Shown here piece after piece: positions 33,292 to 45,185 of a DNA stretch of 45,282 bases. The stretch covers positions 1-45,282 of the forward strand of contig PWWP01000140.1 of the NCBI GenBank assembly GCA_003562075.1, read 5' to 3'. Each line of letters begins with the position of its first letter. Within the stretch, counting starts at the first letter, position 1. Made by a program: the position numbers and the translations under genes. This DNA comes from Gemmatimonadota bacterium. Its GTDB lineage: Bacteria > Gemmatimonadota > Gemmatimonadetes > Longimicrobiales > Gaopeijiaceae. The notes beneath the pieces were generated by a model. It saw nothing but the letters and a program-made list of their open reading frames with translations. It was not told where the DNA came from and did not search any database.

Positions 33292-33338
33292 AATGAGAAG
33301 GCCCGGCAAGGCATTTCGCCTTGCCGGGCCTTCTCATT
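33292..33338 (+). terminator. Strong intrinsic terminator after tRNA-Pro(GGG)
   Basis: A perfect stem of 21 bp (core GAGAAGGCCCGGCAAGGC, 33295-33312, with its complement at 33318-33335, extended by AAT/ATT) around loop ATTTC, followed by TT. It can work in both directions. Confidence 0.9.
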
Positions 33339-37517: not shown

Positions 37518-38126
37518 ATGGTGCCTTCGCTCTTCCGAGCTGCCGTCCTCCTGGGTCTCTTCCTGTCCCTTCCCACGGCCCATGTCCTGGCTCAGGAATC
37601 GCCTGGACTCGGTTCAGACGCATCAGTAGGGGCCATCGTCTCGGTCCGACCAACAGCGTCACAGGTGGCTGATCATTTCATGCCCCTGCTGGGTCTCGGC
37701 TTCGCCCTTCGGCTCACGCCCAACGTGGAGATCGGAGGCGATGGCTTCTTCAGTCTCCGTTCCGTCAGGGTGTCGCCGGATAATTCACCGGACCGCTCTG
37801 AATTGGCCCTTGGATACGGTGGAGTCTTCCTCCGCTACGGCCCCGGATCTGAATCAGGCAACCGAGGCTGGAACGCCGGGATCCTGGCCGGAACAGGCAC
37901 GGCGCGAATCGAGTCAGCGCTGGTGGATGCGGAGTTGGACGCCGACAACTTCTTCGTGATCGAACCCTCGCTGGAGTACCGCCTTCCTCTCACACCCCGG
38001 ATTGGTGTAGCCGCCGGTTTGTCCTACCGGCTCACTGGAGGAGCCGATCCGCTGCCCGGGGTGGAAGCCAGTGCGATCCAGGGTCCCTCCCTCTCGGTGG
38101 CCATCCAGTTCGTCCGGGATCCCTGA
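37518..38126 (+). CDS. Small outer-membrane beta-barrel protein
   Basis: A 202-residue protein with a signal peptide (FRAAVLLGLFLSLPTAHVLAQ). The mature part alternates polar and apolar residues in about eight strands (for example GLGFALRLTPNVEIGG, GYGGVFLRYG, GIGVAAGLSYRL-like) and ends SLSVAIQFVRDP, consistent with an OmpW/OmpA-type or opacity-like barrel. There is no binding or enzymatic motif. ATG 37518 is chosen over an upstream TTG at 37491 because it starts the signal. It lies 90 bases after the M30 gene on the same strand and may be co-transcribed. Role unknown. Confidence 0.75.
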   Translation: MVPSLFRAAVLLGLFLSLPTAHVLAQESPGLGSDASVGAIVSVRPTASQVADHFMPLLGLGFALRLTPNVEIGGDGFFSLRSVRVSPDNSPDRSELALGYGGVFLRYGPGSESGNRGWNAGILAGTGTARIESALVDAELDADNFFVIEPSLEYRLPLTPRIGVAAGLSYRLTGGADPLPGVEASAIQGPSLSVAIQFVRDP

Positions 38127-38155
38127 TCCTGAGACACTCCCTCGACTGAATCTGA

Positions 38156-38194
38156 TTGACTTACCTCGAATATGCAGGTTTATTGTGCATATTC
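38156..38194 (+). promoter_or_regulatory. Promoter with a perfect 9-bp inverted repeat (operator)
   Basis: TTGACT (38156-38161), a 17-base spacer and TTTATT (38179-38184) form a good sigma-70 promoter. Over the spacer and -10 lies GAATATGCA (38168-38176), 9 bases, then TGCATATTC (38186-38194), an exact inverted repeat. A third GAATAT follows at 38197. A bound repressor would occlude the -10. It leads to the small basic protein at 38254. Confidence 0.6.
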
Positions 38195-38253
38195 CCGAAT
38201 ATCCAGATCAGTGGACGACACGCAACGTCCAATCCATCCCATGGGAGCCTGGA

Positions 38254-38634
38254 ATGGCCAAGAACGAAGAGAAGGTCATGCAGTTCGTCGAGAAGTCGTT
38301 GGCGGACACTCCGGACATTACCACGTCCGAGCTGTATGAAGCAGCCAAGAAGGTGGACTCGGGTGTGGAGCAGTTGTCTCTACGGCAGTTCAACGCCCGC
38401 TTCCCCCTTCAGGTGAAGCGCCGTCAGAGCCGGGCCAAGCCAGGCAGGAAGCGACTCCGAACCCGCCGTCGCACGGCTCGGGAGATCTCCGGTCGACAGC
38501 GGGATGAGGTCCGGAACATCTTCCTTCAATTCGCTTCCGATCTGAGCGCTGCCGAAGAGCGGAAGGAACTGGTGAAGGTCATCGCCCAGGTGGACCGTTA
38601 TGTGGACGGGGCCATCAAGGCAACCAAAGATTGA
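38254..38634 (+). CDS. Small basic protein of unknown function
   Basis: Not recognised. A 126-residue cytoplasmic protein in three parts: a helical N terminus (MAKNEEKVMQFVEKSL, then TTSELYEAAKKVDSG) that resembles a small winged-helix or helix-turn-helix fold, a very basic centre (KRRQSRAKPGRKRLRTRRRT), and a charged helical C terminus (AEERKELVKVIAQVDRY). The composition suggests nucleic-acid binding. ATG 38254 has GGGAG 6 bases upstream. A promoter with a perfect palindrome precedes it, so the protein may control its own gene. Nothing links it to the convergent dehydrogenase. Confidence 0.7.
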   Translation: MAKNEEKVMQFVEKSLADTPDITTSELYEAAKKVDSGVEQLSLRQFNARFPLQVKRRQSRAKPGRKRLRTRRRTAREISGRQRDEVRNIFLQFASDLSAAEERKELVKVIAQVDRYVDGAIKATKD

Positions 38635-38718
38635 CTCGACCTCTCGTCCTTGTGAAAGCCACTTGGACAGGCCCCCCCCAGCTGGCGCAGCGATCTCCCC
38701 GGCGAAGCCCCAGCGAGC

Positions 38719-41700
38719 TCACCCCTTCGGCACGCCTTCGGCCTGAAATCGCTCCGCCAAGGCGACGAGTTCGCGGACTGCCACGGTGAGGGCCGGAAGT
38801 CCCGTTCGACCCTCGGATTCGATCTCCTCCACCAGATCCTGGTAGCGCTTCAATGGCTCCTGGTGCTCCGCCGACAGGGTGTCCACAGCCGCATCCACCG
38901 AGTCAGTCGCGGCCCGAACCCGCATGGTGGCGGCGACCAGTCGCTGGTGGGTCCAGGTCAGGTCATCATTGAGGGCGTGGGCCGCCCGCTGCTCCCAGCG
39001 GTCATCTCCGGCAGCATCGAAGATGCTCTGGCGGAGCCAGGGGATCCAGCACAGATCCGAGATCCGATAGAAGGTTCGGGCCACCTCCAGCGGATCGATG
39101 TCGGTTCGCCGATGGACCCGGAGGATCTCCAGTAGATGGTCCAGGAAGCGAAGGCTGATGAGACTCCGGGCAAACGCCTCGTCCGTTCCGTCTCCCTTCA
39201 GCTCCTCCACAAGCTCCTCGAAGAGTTCCCGGTCCCGTCCCGATACGATCTCCGGGAATGCCTCCCTGAGACGAGCCAGGCCGTTCAGGTTCTCCTCCAC
39301 CATCTCCATGGTGTCCCGCTCTTCCGTCTGGCTCGTGAGAATCCAGCGGGTGGTTCGCTCCAGCACTCGTCCCAATCCCTGGAGCCAGCGGTATCCCGAA
39401 GCCAATGACATGGCCGATTCCCGAAGGCTCAGGCGAGCCCGGAGTTCACGATGCCCGATGAGCCGGGAAGCCACGAGCCAGGCCTGGGCGACCTGGGCCG
39501 GCGTCCTTCCCGTTCCGCGGGTCATCCGGTGGATGAACCCCGCCCCCATCATGTCCACCAGGTCATTGGTCAGCTGGCTTGCCACGATCTCTCGACGGAG
39601 TCGGTGGCTCTGGAGGGCGTCCTCACCGGCTTCTGAGAGGGCCGCCGGAGGAAAGTAATCCCGAAGGTACTGGTCCGCCGCACGATCATCCGCAAGATCA
39701 CTCCGGAGGATATGGCCGGCCAGGTGTAGCTTCGCATACCCGAGAAGGATGGAGAGTTCGGGGCGGGTGAACGGATCCTTCCCTTCCTCCTGGCGCTCCA
39801 GGAGTGTTTCCCAGGTAGGAAGGTGCTCGCTGGCACGATCCAGGAGGCCGGCCCGCTCCAATCCGGACATCAGATCCCGAAGGTCATCGATGGCTTCCCT
39901 GGCACGAAGTTCGTCCAGGGAGATGGCGAGACTCTGAGACTCGTTGTCCTGAAGAACCAGCCGGGACACAGGCTCAGCCAGCTCCTTCAGAAGGGCGTTC
40001 CTCCGCTCCAGTTTGAGCCGTCCATCCTCTACCGCCCGGGCCAGGAGAATCTTCAGGTTCACTTCCCGGTCCGACAGGTCCACGCCCCCGGAGTTGTCGA
40101 TGGCGTCCGTATTGATCCGCCCTCCGGAAAGGGCGTACTCGACCCGGGCCGGCTGAGTGAAGCCCAGGTTGCCCCCTTCCCCGACCACGGTGCACCGGAG
40201 ATCTGAAGCATTCACTCGAACGGAGTCGTTGGAGGCGTCCCCTGCGTCCAGATGGCTCTCGCCAGTGGCTTTCACATAGGTCCCGATCCCCCCGTTCCAT
40301 AGCAGCTCCACCGGCGCACTCAGAACATTCCGGATCAACGTCTCCCCATCCATGGGACCTTGATCATCGGATATGCCCAGGGCCTCCCGGGCCTCCGGTG
40401 TGAGTTCCACCGACTTGGAGCCCCTGGGGATGATCATCCCCCCCTCCGAAAGCACCTCCCTGTTGTAGTCCTGCCACGTGGAACGCCCCATCTCGAAGAG
40501 CCGTTTCCGCTCCTGGAAGGAGGTCTCCGGATCGGGATCGGGGTCGATGAAGATGTCCCGGTGATCGAAGGCGGCCACAAGGCGGATCTTCCGGGAAAGC
40601 AGCATCCCATTTCCGAAAACATCTCCGGACATGTCCCCGATTCCCACAACGGTGAAGGGCTCCTTCTGAATATCCTTGCCCATCTCCAGGAAGTGGCGCT
40701 TCACGCACTCCCAGGCGCCCCGGGCCGTGATTCCCACCTCCTTGTGGTCATAGCCGATGGACCCTCCGGAGGCGAAGGCGTCGCCGAGCCAGAAGTCATA
40801 CTCGGCCGCCACCTCGTTGGCCATGTCCGAGAAGGTGGCCGTTCCCTTATCCGCAGCCACCACCAGGTACGCGTCCGGTTCGTCGTAACAGATGACGCTC
40901 TCCGGAGGAACGAACTTTCCACCCTTCAAATTGTCGGTGATATCCAGCAGGCCCCGGATCAGGGTCTTGTACTGTTCCTGGACCTCCTCCCCCATCTCAG
41001 CCTGAGGAAGCTGTCGGAGGGTCACGAAGCCCCCCTTCGATCCACCGGGAACGATGACCGCATTCTTCACCACCTGCGTCCGCACCAGCCCCAGGACCTC
41101 GGTCCTGAAATCGTCGTGCCGGTCTGAGTGGCGAATTCCTCCGCGAGCCACCTGGGCTCCTCGGTGATGAACACCCTCCATCCGGGAGGATCGAACCCAG
41201 ACCTCGTATCGGAGTCGGGTTCGGGCCGGCCCCTCCAGGGCCTGACAGTCGAACTTGAAGGAGATGTAGGGCACGCCCCCTGAACGCTTGGTGGGAGCCC
41301 GTCCCCCATGCCGATAGAAGTTGGTCCGGAGCGTACCCTCGATCAGGTTCACCAGGCGCCGGAGCGCCCTGTCATCACTCAGGCTGGAGACCTGGGACAG
41401 CTGGTCGTGGATGGCCTCCTGCACCTCTCCCGCCAACGCCTCCCGCTCCGTCCGGGAGGCTGGCCCTTCCGGATCGAACCGGGCTTCGAAGAACTGGAAG
41501 AGAAGCCGACCCAACTCCGGGTGCTTGGCCAGAGCCACAGGTAGGGAGAGGCGGCTGGGAACGGCGCCAACCTGGAAGCCGAAGGAGGCATAGGCTCGGA
41601 GGACCTCAACCTCCCTCCAGGACAGTCCCGACGTGACCACCAGGGCGTTGAGCTGATCATTGGTCGCGTCTCCACTGCGGACGGCCAGAATCATCTCCGA

Positions 41701-43644
41701 CAGCCGGGTACCCACCTCGTCCACTTCCAGCGGGCGATGGTCCGGCCCCTGGACCACGAAGGAATAGATGATGGCCTCGGTAGCCTGCCGACCCCGAATC
41801 TCGAAGGGCGTCACCGCCACGACCCGCAGGCCACAGTTCTCCAGGATCGGCATGAAATCCGAAAGAATCAGACGCGTGCCTCTCAAGTACAACTTGAGTT
41901 CGGTGACCGCTTCATCGCCCCCCACCACTCTCGTGTCGCCCGCATTGCTCAGACGGGTCGAGGCGGAGCGACCATCAGCCTCCATGGCCTCCAGCTCCAG
42001 GATGTCCCACACCGCCGTGTCGGGCTCGGTAGCCGCCTGGTACTCCGGGCTCAGCGCTTCCCCGTACACCCGGGCCAACCTGCGAGCCTCTTCAGCTGGA
42101 CGGACCCGCTCGAGCCCCTCCTTCAGCCGATCCTGCCAGCTGCGGATGAGTTCCCGAACCACGGTTTCCAGTTCATGCGTGGTCACCTCGTCCAGACGAT
42201 CTGACTGGGCTGCAAGGAAGAAGTGGAGCCGGGCCTGGTCACCCTCCCCGAGAGCCAGGTGGTAGTTCAGCACCTCGGCATCCAGAGTCTCCACAAACGC
42301 CTGCTCGATGCGCTTTCGGACCTCACCCGAGAACTTCTCCTTGGCCAGGATCACCATGACCGACACGCCCCGGAGAAGCGGGTCCCGCCGGAGTGTGACA
42401 CGGACATCATCCGAGTCGAAGGTTGTGAGCACCGTGCGAACGTCGGAGCCAATCTCCTCGGAGGAGGTCAGGAAGAGCTCCTCCTTCGGGAGGCTGTTGA
42501 AGATCGTGTGGATCTCCTTGTAGTCGTGGGACCCGGCCTGGACTCCCGACTCCTCCAGAATCCGTTCCAGCTTCTGCCGGAGAATCGGGATTCGCTCAGC
42601 CTTCTCCGAGAAGGCCTCCGAAGTGAAGAGGCCGATGAAGCGACGTTCGCCCACCACCTCTCCCGACTCATCCACCTTCTTCACCCCGATGTAGTCCATC
42701 CGGGCCCGACGGTGGACCGTCGCGGTAGCGTTCGTCTTGGAGATGATCAGGAGTGGACCGCTCTCGGCCATCTCCCGCATGTTCGGAGACAGGGCTGAGA
42801 CCGGGACCGGGGTGGAGAAGGATGATTCCTCCTCACTCCGGAGCACACCGAGCCCCGAGCCCCGCTCCACCAGGACACACTGCTCCCCCTCATGCTCCAC
42901 CAGGTCATATCCGCGGTAGCCGAGAAAGACGAATCCACCCTCCTTCAACCACTCCAGGAAGGCCTGGATCTCCTCAACCTCATCGGTGAGGTCCGGATGA
43001 AGCTGAGCCGCCTCCTCCAGCCCCTGAATGGTGCGATCCACCTCTCCCAGCATGCGCTCGAAGTCCTGGGTGGCGTTGACAACGTCCTGGAGCCGATCGG
43101 TGATGTCCCGCTGCAGGCGCTCCATCCGGGAGGGATCGTTCACCCGGGTGATCTCACAGTGAACCAGGGACTCCCGGCTTCCATCGTCCCCTGAAGGCCC
43201 CAGCTCCGTGATCCTTCCATCCTGAGACCGGGTGACCTGCAGGACCGGATAGATGTAGACCTCGATGGCCAGATCCTGGGAGTGCAGGTATTCCCGGATC
43301 GTATCGACGATGAACGGTCGCTCGGAAACATTGGTCCGAATGACCGTCACCGGGGCGAACCACCCCTCCGTGTCCACGTCCGGGTTCACGACCTCCACAT
43401 CCACCCGATCCGGGTAGCTGCGCTGGAGGAACCGGAAGGCGGACAGGGTCATCCGGGCCAACGCCTGGGTGCTCCTCTCCTCCAAGAACCCGGGGGGCGC
43501 CTTCGCGAAGAAGAGCTCGCCGAAGCGGAGGACGAGGTCGGTCTCCTCCGGCTCAGCCATCCGCTTGAGCTCGCGGCTCAAGTCCCGGAAGGTTGGGTGA
43601 TCAGACTCAAGACGTTTTGCCGCCAACGGATGGGAGTCACTCAT
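38719..43644 (-). CDS. NAD-specific glutamate dehydrogenase, large (180-kDa) type
   Basis: A cytoplasmic enzyme of about 1641 residues that deaminates glutamate to 2-oxoglutarate and ammonia with NAD. The ATG at 43644 gives the normal family N terminus; the frame is open for another 110 codons of low-complexity Pro/Gly/Arg sequence without family character. The first 600 residues contain ACT-like regulatory repeats (EGWFAPVTVIRTNVSERPFI). The catalytic core carries ARGGIRHSDR, VPGGSKGGFVTLRQ and GDMSGDVFGNGMLL, and the last 400 residues are helical. Such enzymes feed amino-acid carbon into the TCA cycle, which suits the many peptidases nearby. No Shine-Dalgarno sequence is evident. The 290 bases upstream, shared with a divergent gene, hold no element I recognise. 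Confidence 0.96.
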   Translation of the reverse strand: MSDSHPLAAKRLESDHPTFRDLSRELKRMAEPEETDLVLRFGELFFAKAPPGFLEERSTQALARMTLSAFRFLQRSYPDRVDVEVVNPDVDTEGWFAPVTVIRTNVSERPFIVDTIREYLHSQDLAIEVYIYPVLQVTRSQDGRITELGPSGDDGSRESLVHCEITRVNDPSRMERLQRDITDRLQDVVNATQDFERMLGEVDRTIQGLEEAAQLHPDLTDEVEEIQAFLEWLKEGGFVFLGYRGYDLVEHEGEQCVLVERGSGLGVLRSEEESSFSTPVPVSALSPNMREMAESGPLLIISKTNATATVHRRARMDYIGVKKVDESGEVVGERRFIGLFTSEAFSEKAERIPILRQKLERILEESGVQAGSHDYKEIHTIFNSLPKEELFLTSSEEIGSDVRTVLTTFDSDDVRVTLRRDPLLRGVSVMVILAKEKFSGEVRKRIEQAFVETLDAEVLNYHLALGEGDQARLHFFLAAQSDRLDEVTTHELETVVRELIRSWQDRLKEGLERVRPAEEARRLARVYGEALSPEYQAATEPDTAVWDILELEAMEADGRSASTRLSNAGDTRVVGGDEAVTELKLYLRGTRLILSDFMPILENCGLRVVAVTPFEIRGRQATEAIIYSFVVQGPDHRPLEVDEVGTRLSEMILAVRSGDATNDQLNALVVTSGLSWREVEVLRAYASFGFQVGAVPSRLSLPVALAKHPELGRLLFQFFEARFDPEGPASRTEREALAGEVQEAIHDQLSQVSSLSDDRALRRLVNLIEGTLRTNFYRHGGRAPTKRSGGVPYISFKFDCQALEGPARTRLRYEVWVRSSRMEGVHHRGAQVARGGIRHSDRHDDFRTEVLGLVRTQVVKNAVIVPGGSKGGFVTLRQLPQAEMGEEVQEQYKTLIRGLLDITDNLKGGKFVPPESVICYDEPDAYLVVAADKGTATFSDMANEVAAEYDFWLGDAFASGGSIGYDHKEVGITARGAWECVKRHFLEMGKDIQKEPFTVVGIGDMSGDVFGNGMLLSRKIRLVAAFDHRDIFIDPDPDPETSFQERKRLFEMGRSTWQDYNREVLSEGGMIIPRGSKSVELTPEAREALGISDDQGPMDGETLIRNVLSAPVELLWNGGIGTYVKATGESHLDAGDASNDSVRVNASDLRCTVVGEGGNLGFTQPARVEYALSGGRINTDAIDNSGGVDLSDREVNLKILLARAVEDGRLKLERRNALLKELAEPVSRLVLQDNESQSLAISLDELRAREAIDDLRDLMSGLERAGLLDRASEHLPTWETLLERQEEGKDPFTRPELSILLGYAKLHLAGHILRSDLADDRAADQYLRDYFPPAALSEAGEDALQSHRLRREIVASQLTNDLVDMMGAGFIHRMTRGTGRTPAQVAQAWLVASRLIGHRELRARLSLRESAMSLASGYRWLQGLGRVLERTTRWILTSQTEERDTMEMVEENLNGLARLREAFPEIVSGRDRELFEELVEELKGDGTDEAFARSLISLRFLDHLLEILRVHRRTDIDPLEVARTFYRISDLCWIPWLRQSIFDAAGDDRWEQRAAHALNDDLTWTHQRLVAATMRVRAATDSVDAAVDTLSAEHQEPLKRYQDLVEEIESEGRTGLPALTVAVRELVALAERFQAEGVPKG

Positions 43645-43934
43645 GCCATACGGAGAGAAGGAGAAGGGGCGCTCCGGAGCGCCGTCCACGTCGGAGAAGG
43701 GACGCGGTTCGCCACCGAGCGGATCCTGTCGGCCTGGAGCCAACGGCCTCGCGGTGGAAGGGGAGAGCAAGTGCTCATGGGAAGGTATCGTACACCCGTC
43801 CCATCCCTTCGTAAAGAGCCGAGGCCTTGGCCTCCCGCCGGACCGCCTCCTACCTTCAGATCCGTAGGTTGGCAACCCGGTCTCTCCCGGAAGCCCGCGC
43901 CCTCCAGCACCCCTCTCCTCGAGCCGCACAATCC

Positions 43935-45185
43935 ATGCGATTCCTGCACCTGGCTGACCTCCACCTGGACACTCCATTCACCACTCGGAGCGATGCAGTA
44001 CGGCGGGAGTTGAAAGAGGCTGGGCGCATCGCATTGGAACGGGCAGTGGAGCTGGCACTGTCCGAGAGGGTCGATGTCCTCCTCATCGCCGGGGACCTCT
44101 TCGATGGCGAGCAGCTCTCTTTCCATACGGAACGGTTTCTGCATCAGTCCATGGCTCGGCTCAGCAGCGCAGGGGTCCAGGTCGTCTACGCCACGGGCAA
44201 TCATGATCCGGGAGGAGCGGGAGGCCACGCCCGGCGAATGGAATGGCCGGAAGGCGTCACCCTCCTCCTGGATCCGAAACCGCGCGTGGTTCCCATCCAC
44301 AGGGAAGGAGAGCTGGTAGGTCGGGTCACGGGAGCAGGCCACGGCTCAGCTCGGGAGGAACGGGACCTGGCATCCACCTTCCCCCGACCCCAGGGGGAAG
44401 TGCCGGAGATCGCCCTCCTTCACACTCAGGTCCTCGGAACCCCGGGTGAGGCCCATCACGACCGCTATGCCCCATCCCACCTGGCCCAACTGAAGGCTTC
44501 CGGCTACGACTACTGGGCCCTTGGTCATATCCCCCTTCGCCAGGAGCTGGCAGAGACGCCCCCCATCCACTATCCCGGCAACCTCCAGGGCCGACACCCT
44601 GGCGAATCAGGTCCCAAGGGCGGACTCCTGGTCCAGGTGGCCCAGAACCGGACTCAAGTGGACTTCGTGGAGCTGGCTCCCATTCGGTGGGAGGTCCTGG
44701 TGATGGACGAGCTGGACCATGCCCACTCTCTGGCTGACTTGGCCAGACTGGTGGAGAACCGATGGACACAGGCCCGGGAGTCGGATCCTGGAACGCCTGA
44801 GGCCAAATGGATTCTACGCCTCAACCTCGCAGGTCGCTCCCCCCTCCACCGGGAGCTGTCTGATCCGGAAGAACAGCTGCAATTGAGCCAGGAGCTGGCC
44901 ATCCGACTTGACCTTCTGGACGTGGAGATCCGAGCTGAGGCCACCCGCCCCCCTCTCGCGCCGGCAGACCATCGGGACCGGATGGACGTGCTGGGCGAAG
45001 CCCTGCGGATCCTTGAAGAACTCACCACCGAAGACGGTCCTTCCCCATCCCGGACGCTTGGACTGTCGGAGGGAGAGATGGCGGCCTTGGGGCGTGCCAA
45101 ACTGGATCCCTACCTCCGGGAGCTCCTTCAAAGTGAGGAGCCGGAGCTTCTTCAGGCGCTCCTGGTCGAAGGAGAAACGTCGTGA
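43935..45185 (+). CDS. SbcD/Mre11-type DNA exonuclease (YhaO-like)
   Basis: A 416-residue calcineurin-like metallophosphoesterase. The metal-binding motifs appear in order: DLHLDTPF (8-15), GDLFDG, GNHDPGG, LLHTQ and GHIPLR. With an SMC-like ATPase partner it would trim DNA ends during repair. The DxHLDTPF form and overall length fit the YhaO subgroup better than E. coli SbcD. ATG 43935 starts the fold. The TGA overlaps the next gene's GTG by 4 bases, so the two subunits are translationally coupled. Confidence 0.92.
   Translation: MRFLHLADLHLDTPFTTRSDAVRRELKEAGRIALERAVELALSERVDVLLIAGDLFDGEQLSFHTERFLHQSMARLSSAGVQVVYATGNHDPGGAGGHARRMEWPEGVTLLLDPKPRVVPIHREGELVGRVTGAGHGSAREERDLASTFPRPQGEVPEIALLHTQVLGTPGEAHHDRYAPSHLAQLKASGYDYWALGHIPLRQELAETPPIHYPGNLQGRHPGESGPKGGLLVQVAQNRTQVDFVELAPIRWEVLVMDELDHAHSLADLARLVENRWTQARESDPGTPEAKWILRLNLAGRSPLHRELSDPEEQLQLSQELAIRLDLLDVEIRAEATRPPLAPADHRDRMDVLGEALRILEELTTEDGPSPSRTLGLSEGEMAALGRAKLDPYLRELLQSEEPELLQALLVEGETS

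Follow-up and report, generated by a model that had tools for sequence, protein, structure and literature searches.

Does a perfect palindrome lying over a bacterial promoter mark an operator at which the downstream gene product represses its own synthesis? We asked this of a small gene of a Gemmatimonadota bacterium, contained in a 45,282-nt stretch of DNA that was analysed as a whole (the window), for which a preliminary description had proposed a self-repressing regulator. The exact 9-bp inverted repeat with its 9-base spacer is present as that description claimed (Table 1). Its right arm begins 2 nt past the final T of TTTATT, and the two arms flank this -10-like box. The repeat had been placed across both the promoter spacer and the -10 element; the left arm does lie in the -35/-10 spacer, but the -10 itself sits between the arms. 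Together with a third box, the right arm also forms a second, overlapping dyad, ATATTC-CC-GAATAT, at 38189–38202.

Table 1. Coordinates of the promoter, palindrome and coding features in the window.
Feature	Position	Strand	Remark
-35 box TTGACT	38156..38161	+	TTGAC conserved ahead of the gene in 5/5 genus genomes
Perfect palindrome GAATATGCA-GGTTTATTG-TGCATATTC	38168-38194		9-bp arms, 9-base spacer; exact match
Palindrome left arm GAATATGCA	38168..38176	+	In the -35/-10 spacer; exact match
Palindrome spacer GGTTTATTG	38177-38185		Contains the -10-like box
-10-like box TTTATT	38179..38184	+	Inside the palindrome spacer; 17 nt after TTGACT
Palindrome right arm TGCATATTC	38186..38194	+	Overlaps the putative start region
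Third half-site-like box TGGATATTC	38197..38205	-	1-mismatch match to arm
Gene P0001, 126-aa protein	38254..38634	+	Predicted HTH-like domain and helical C-terminal part, joined by a basic linker
Convergent large ORF	38719..43977	-	True start may be internal

With as many as 3 mismatches allowed, the palindrome has a single match in the window and, in the genome-wide search that had been suggested as a check, a single match in the 3.59-Mb genome (351 contigs, 95% complete), at this locus. A looser form, GAATAT-N9..20-ATATTC, occurs at one other place in the source genome and at three in the other four genomes of the genus, and its reversed-pattern control gives 0 matches. When the 127-bp gap is shuffled, an inverted repeat whose arms reach 9 or more, with a spacer of 20 or less, appears in 223 of 20,000 shuffles, and within 80 bp around TTGAC an arm length of 9 is reached in 2 of 400. 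By the same arm and spacer limits the whole window holds 13 inverted repeats, and 20 first-order Markov shuffles hold 2–12 (mean 6.25). The palindrome is thus unusual for its spot, yet its rarity is modest once the whole window is read, and it is not compelling. Elsewhere in the window, at 33292–33338, a perfect stem of 21 bp closes a 5-nt loop. TTGAG and only a short T-run follow, and by eye this may be an intrinsic terminator; it is preceded by GGTTCGAATCC, which resembles the 3′ end of a tRNA.

The promoter beneath the palindrome had been called good, and this holds for its conservation but not for a strict sigma-70 scan, which finds 0 promoter sites in 37900–38800. The arrangement TTGAC-N18-TTTATT stands upstream of the gene in all five genus genomes. 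Scanning these genomes for TTGACA-N17-TTTATT with at most 1 mismatch yields 8 matches, 1–3 per genome, of which 5 are this promoter, 1 is an identical copy in G004 and 2 lie elsewhere in G000; the reversed-pattern control gives 1 match over the five genomes. The core of the right arm, ATAT(T/C)C, starts 4–5 nt past TTTATT in every genus genome, as exact ATATTC in four and as ATATCC in the fifth. When the two boxes are required together with ATATTC within 6 nt, the pattern matches this promoter alone in four of the five genomes, with 0 matches for the control. In G004 the extra copy of the boxes found at the orthologue's promoter is on another contig (G004:C307:4586-4614) and may be a contig-end overlap or a duplication.

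Parts of this promoter reach beyond the genus. Of 28 family loci, the window among them, 21 have a TTGAC 70–140 nt ahead of the gene start, as do 16 of the 23 that lie outside the genus; L029, L035 and L037, being partial, broken or masked, had been excluded beforehand. In L016 and L006 the counted TTGAC lies at 70/71 nt and another, at 98/99 nt, precedes TTTCTTTG; that of L038 may be chance; and for L013 the locus translation begins at an internal ATG, 24 nt into the frame used for the promoter comparisons. T-rich -10-like boxes with TTTG are present in at least 6 of the 23 non-genus family promoters (for example TTTCTTTG, TTTATTTG and ATTCTTTG) and are possibly a -10 typical of the phylum. 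Our literature search found no publication title naming Gemmatimonadota promoters or start sites, or nucleoid-type or H1-like proteins.

The operator proposal had looked to conservation of the palindrome upstream of orthologues, and it is here that the proposal gives way: searched at its own spacing by its core, AATATGC-N11-GCATATT, with no more than 2 mismatches, the palindrome lies upstream of the orthologue in none of the other four genus genomes; at 2 mismatches the core has one match in each of three of these genomes, on other contigs. The left arm retains between 1 and 5 of its 9 bases (4, 1, 5 and 3 in G001–G004, anchored on TTTATT). The right arm matches in 4, 1, 2 and 2 of 9 bases when held in register, and in 5, 6, 7 and 7 of 9 when shifted by 1 nt. 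Because the five promoters in this arm comparison were chosen by their boxes, the conservation of the boxes themselves rests on the genome scans. Among the other family promoters no common inverted repeat was found at the 22 loci with TTGAC (24 of the 28 loci entered this comparison), the compared stretch starting 15 nt before TTGAC, so that the left arm of a dyad in G002 is lost from it. Within the genus, conservation covers the promoter and the half of the dyad at the putative start region, and on the best reading the full palindrome is species-specific. Two relatives, L006 and L016 (L008 and L016 being one record), share another inverted repeat, ATGAAGG-N5-CCTTCAT and GATGAA-N9-TTCATC, in their 5′ leaders just upstream of the start codon; it is not the palindrome of the window.

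The gene itself encodes a protein with a computed pI of 10.2, and its start codon is supported by orthologues beginning MAKNE. The very basic centre that had been described is there, residues 55–76 holding 13 K/R and 0 D/E, and it follows a slightly acidic stretch (residues 1–54; 7 K/R, 9 D/E). AF2 predicts a five-helix N-terminal domain for residues 1–64 (pLDDT 88, pTM 0.71), and its full-length model is poorer (pLDDT 79, pTM 0.42). The fold neighbours of the N-terminal domain are mostly HTH and homeodomain chains among the 50 best matches, and the best neighbour has Z 5.1 with an rmsd of 2.5 Å over 47 aligned residues, a Z level that is common according to the search tool. The weak neighbours include TetR-type N-terminal domains and FapR, Lrp/AsnC-type and EthR chains. 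With Foldseek the domain has no match at E ≤ 0.001 (best E 3.1). An HTH-like start is plausible from the kind of neighbour that the model attracts, at Z 5.1 or below and a Foldseek E of 3.1 at best, and we regard an HTH-like DNA-binding N-terminal domain as likely.

Sequence searches give the protein no name. With 17 family members (an alignment of 17 rows in which L002 and L011 are one locus, leaving 16 distinct rows), Pfam returned weak, scattered matches, with a best E of 0.0042 (OrfB_IS605, in 2 members) and HTH_24 at E 0.078 in 1 member; NCBIfam and PHROGs were weak as well, with best E values of 0.0084 and 0.012. PADLOC gave no match for P0001 alone, PDB sequences gave 4 matches at E ≤ 10 (best 0.054), Rfam gave none over 37900–38700, and viral contigs, plasmids and phages gave no match. 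An assignment to TetR was considered and rejected on sequence grounds: no TetR_N match at E ≤ 1 is among the Pfam families listed for the 17 members, a single TetR_C_20 match has E 0.011, and profile–profile comparison with 36 TetR domains reaches a probability of 0.3% (local) or 0.1% (global), a 6-domain comparison being negative too. With no convincing match, we assign the 126-aa protein to no named family.

The family was detected in at least 66 of 395 Gemmatimonadota genomes, a lower bound since at most 10 candidates were scored per genome, and orthologues are present in 30 of 57 relatives, the genome of the window included. Its members share a conserved N-terminal domain, a variable linker and a conserved C-terminal part, the linker being long and A/K/P-rich in some. 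The computed pI is at least 10.0 in 27 of 28 members; the basic linker is not universal, because L030 has a pI of 5.5. The HTH-like domain occurs twice before one C-terminal part in L030 (1246–1722, minus strand), and many pairs of places in the survey of the 395 genomes show it twice as well. In the window the gene converges with a large ORF that we take to be a large NAD-specific glutamate dehydrogenase. Of the 34 other genomes whose loci were examined, 16 have a homologue of this ORF beside the gene in the same convergent arrangement; these 16 all belong to the same family and include all four other genus members, and many of the remaining loci have short flanks. Homologues of the two upstream ORFs are kept at several loci.

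Taken together, we favour, with a probability only slightly above one half, the reading that a conserved promoter drives the expression of a DNA-binding, perhaps nucleoid-type protein and that the palindrome is species-specific rather than a conserved operator. The gene product would then be a small protein, present in some of the Gemmatimonadota, that probably binds DNA. It would combine a predicted HTH-like N-terminal domain, a basic linker that is probably flexible, and a helical C-terminal region through which it may dimerise. Its role would most likely be architectural, of the nucleoid type, or broadly regulatory, the architectural role being suggested by the domain layout with its basic linker together with the conserved promoter. 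Expression would proceed from TTGAC(A/T)-N17-TTTATT, a promoter of primary-sigma type to judge from its boxes, with the conserved ATAT(T/C)C at the putative transcription start. The right arm of the palindrome would be this conserved start-region element, and the left arm a lineage-specific, possibly chance, complement to it. For the Gemmatimonadota the locus offers a promoter that is conserved and open to experiment, and a family of proteins that are likely to bind DNA. It also suggests that a perfect palindrome at a promoter can be species-specific, so conservation should be checked before such a palindrome is called an operator.

The strongest alternative is autorepression, in which the HTH-like protein would bind ATATTC/GAATAT boxes in its own promoter and block RNA polymerase at the -10 and start region, through the two arms and the third box here and through boxes arranged otherwise in sister species. 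The self-repressor that had been proposed for this locus gains partial support from the probable DNA-binding fold, the basic centre and the conserved promoter; the palindrome, at its own spacing, lies upstream of none of the four other genus orthologues. A conserved self-repression switch is possible. The predicted HTH-like fold and basic linker suit such a protein, and a perfect 9+9 dyad around the -10 is where a repressor site would sit. Because the closest relative, G002, has a related dyad, GGATATGT-N13-ACATATCC, over its -35, with other spacing and position, an operator role retains some likelihood; a pattern covering both dyads, fitted post hoc, occurs in at least one of four shuffled upstream regions in 5 of 20,000 trials. 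The boxes are also found at the promoter in all five genus members, and in sum are more frequent than shuffles or stretches of similar GC would predict. Motif matches number 14 at 12 sites, two sites being counted twice, compared with 1.2 expected, for a motif selected after the data were seen. Exact arm 6-mers occupy 5 sites in four genus orthologues compared with 0.86 in shuffles, as many being reached in 0.14% of 5,000. Their background at similar GC is about 0.18 per 170 bp, drawn from overlapping stretches (158 in the 0.46–0.56 band) at loci of which some were fetched by similar patterns; for the G004 upstream region, with a GC of 0.60, its own band gives 0.11.

Other observations weigh against this alternative. 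Outside the genus the arm 6-mers likewise exceed first-order shuffles (12 compared with 4.3, over 23 loci), so part of the excess reflects the general AT-richness of promoters, and the half-site excess, once considered as proof of an operator, is weakened to that extent. In most genus genomes one of the sites is the conserved start-region box itself. The position and spacing of the dyad and its left arm are all unconserved, and the centres of the arms stand 18 bp apart, which is not a whole number of turns at the DNA helical pitch of 10.5 bp. We therefore hold autorepression to be a tentative alternative, clearly less probable than the preferred reading. A further version we find more doubtful still. 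In it the protein would typify an unnamed Gemmatimonadota family of architectural DNA-binding proteins, with an HTH-like head that is often duplicated, an H1-like basic linker and a helical C-terminal part, and would regulate its own abundance by way of ATATTC boxes whose clustering at an unchanging promoter shifts rapidly; were it true, operator layout would turn over between sister species as the protein and the promoter stay.

The palindrome could instead be the operator of another dimeric regulator, one that controls the promoter in this species alone. Repressor sites typically show a perfect dyad within a promoter, and the genome encodes other HTH regulators (6 TetR_N matches, for example), but no regulon is visible, because the genome holds no second copy of the palindrome even with 3 mismatches allowed, and its looser form recurs at just one other place; we judge this unlikely. 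That the repeat serves as an RNA hairpin, or as a terminator of the upstream ORF ending at 38126, is very improbable, and a terminator or attenuator we reject: the arms as RNA would fold at -11.5 kcal/mol (z -3.69), with none of 200 shuffles equally stable, but no T-run lies 3′ of the palindrome, no terminator-like site was found in 37900–38800, the arms are unconserved, and transcripts from the gene's own promoter would probably start inside the right arm.

The locus resembles three known systems in part. Autoregulated HTH repressors bind dyad operators on their own promoters, and the locus shares with them a predicted HTH-like N-terminus and a dyad that covers the -10 and the putative start of the gene encoding it. 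It differs from them in its basic linker, its short helical C-terminal part and a dyad that is unconserved in relatives, and neither family-library nor profile searches returned a convincing sequence relation to them. Promoters of the Bacteroidetes type carry a TAnnTTTG box, and the T-rich TTTG boxes of the non-genus promoters recall it; unlike that type, the -35 is here a clear TTGAC, and the genus has TTTATTG or TTTATTC at its putative -10. Nucleoid-associated and histone H1-like proteins with basic, low-complexity linkers include HC1, Lsr2 and H-NS. Unlike these, the protein described here has a slightly acidic, HTH-like N-terminal domain and is without a family match, the one match to a StpA model (E 0.046, in 1 of 17 members) not being significant. 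Like them, to judge from general descriptions, it is small and basic and has a K/R-rich linker, which in some members, such as L032, also contains A and P.
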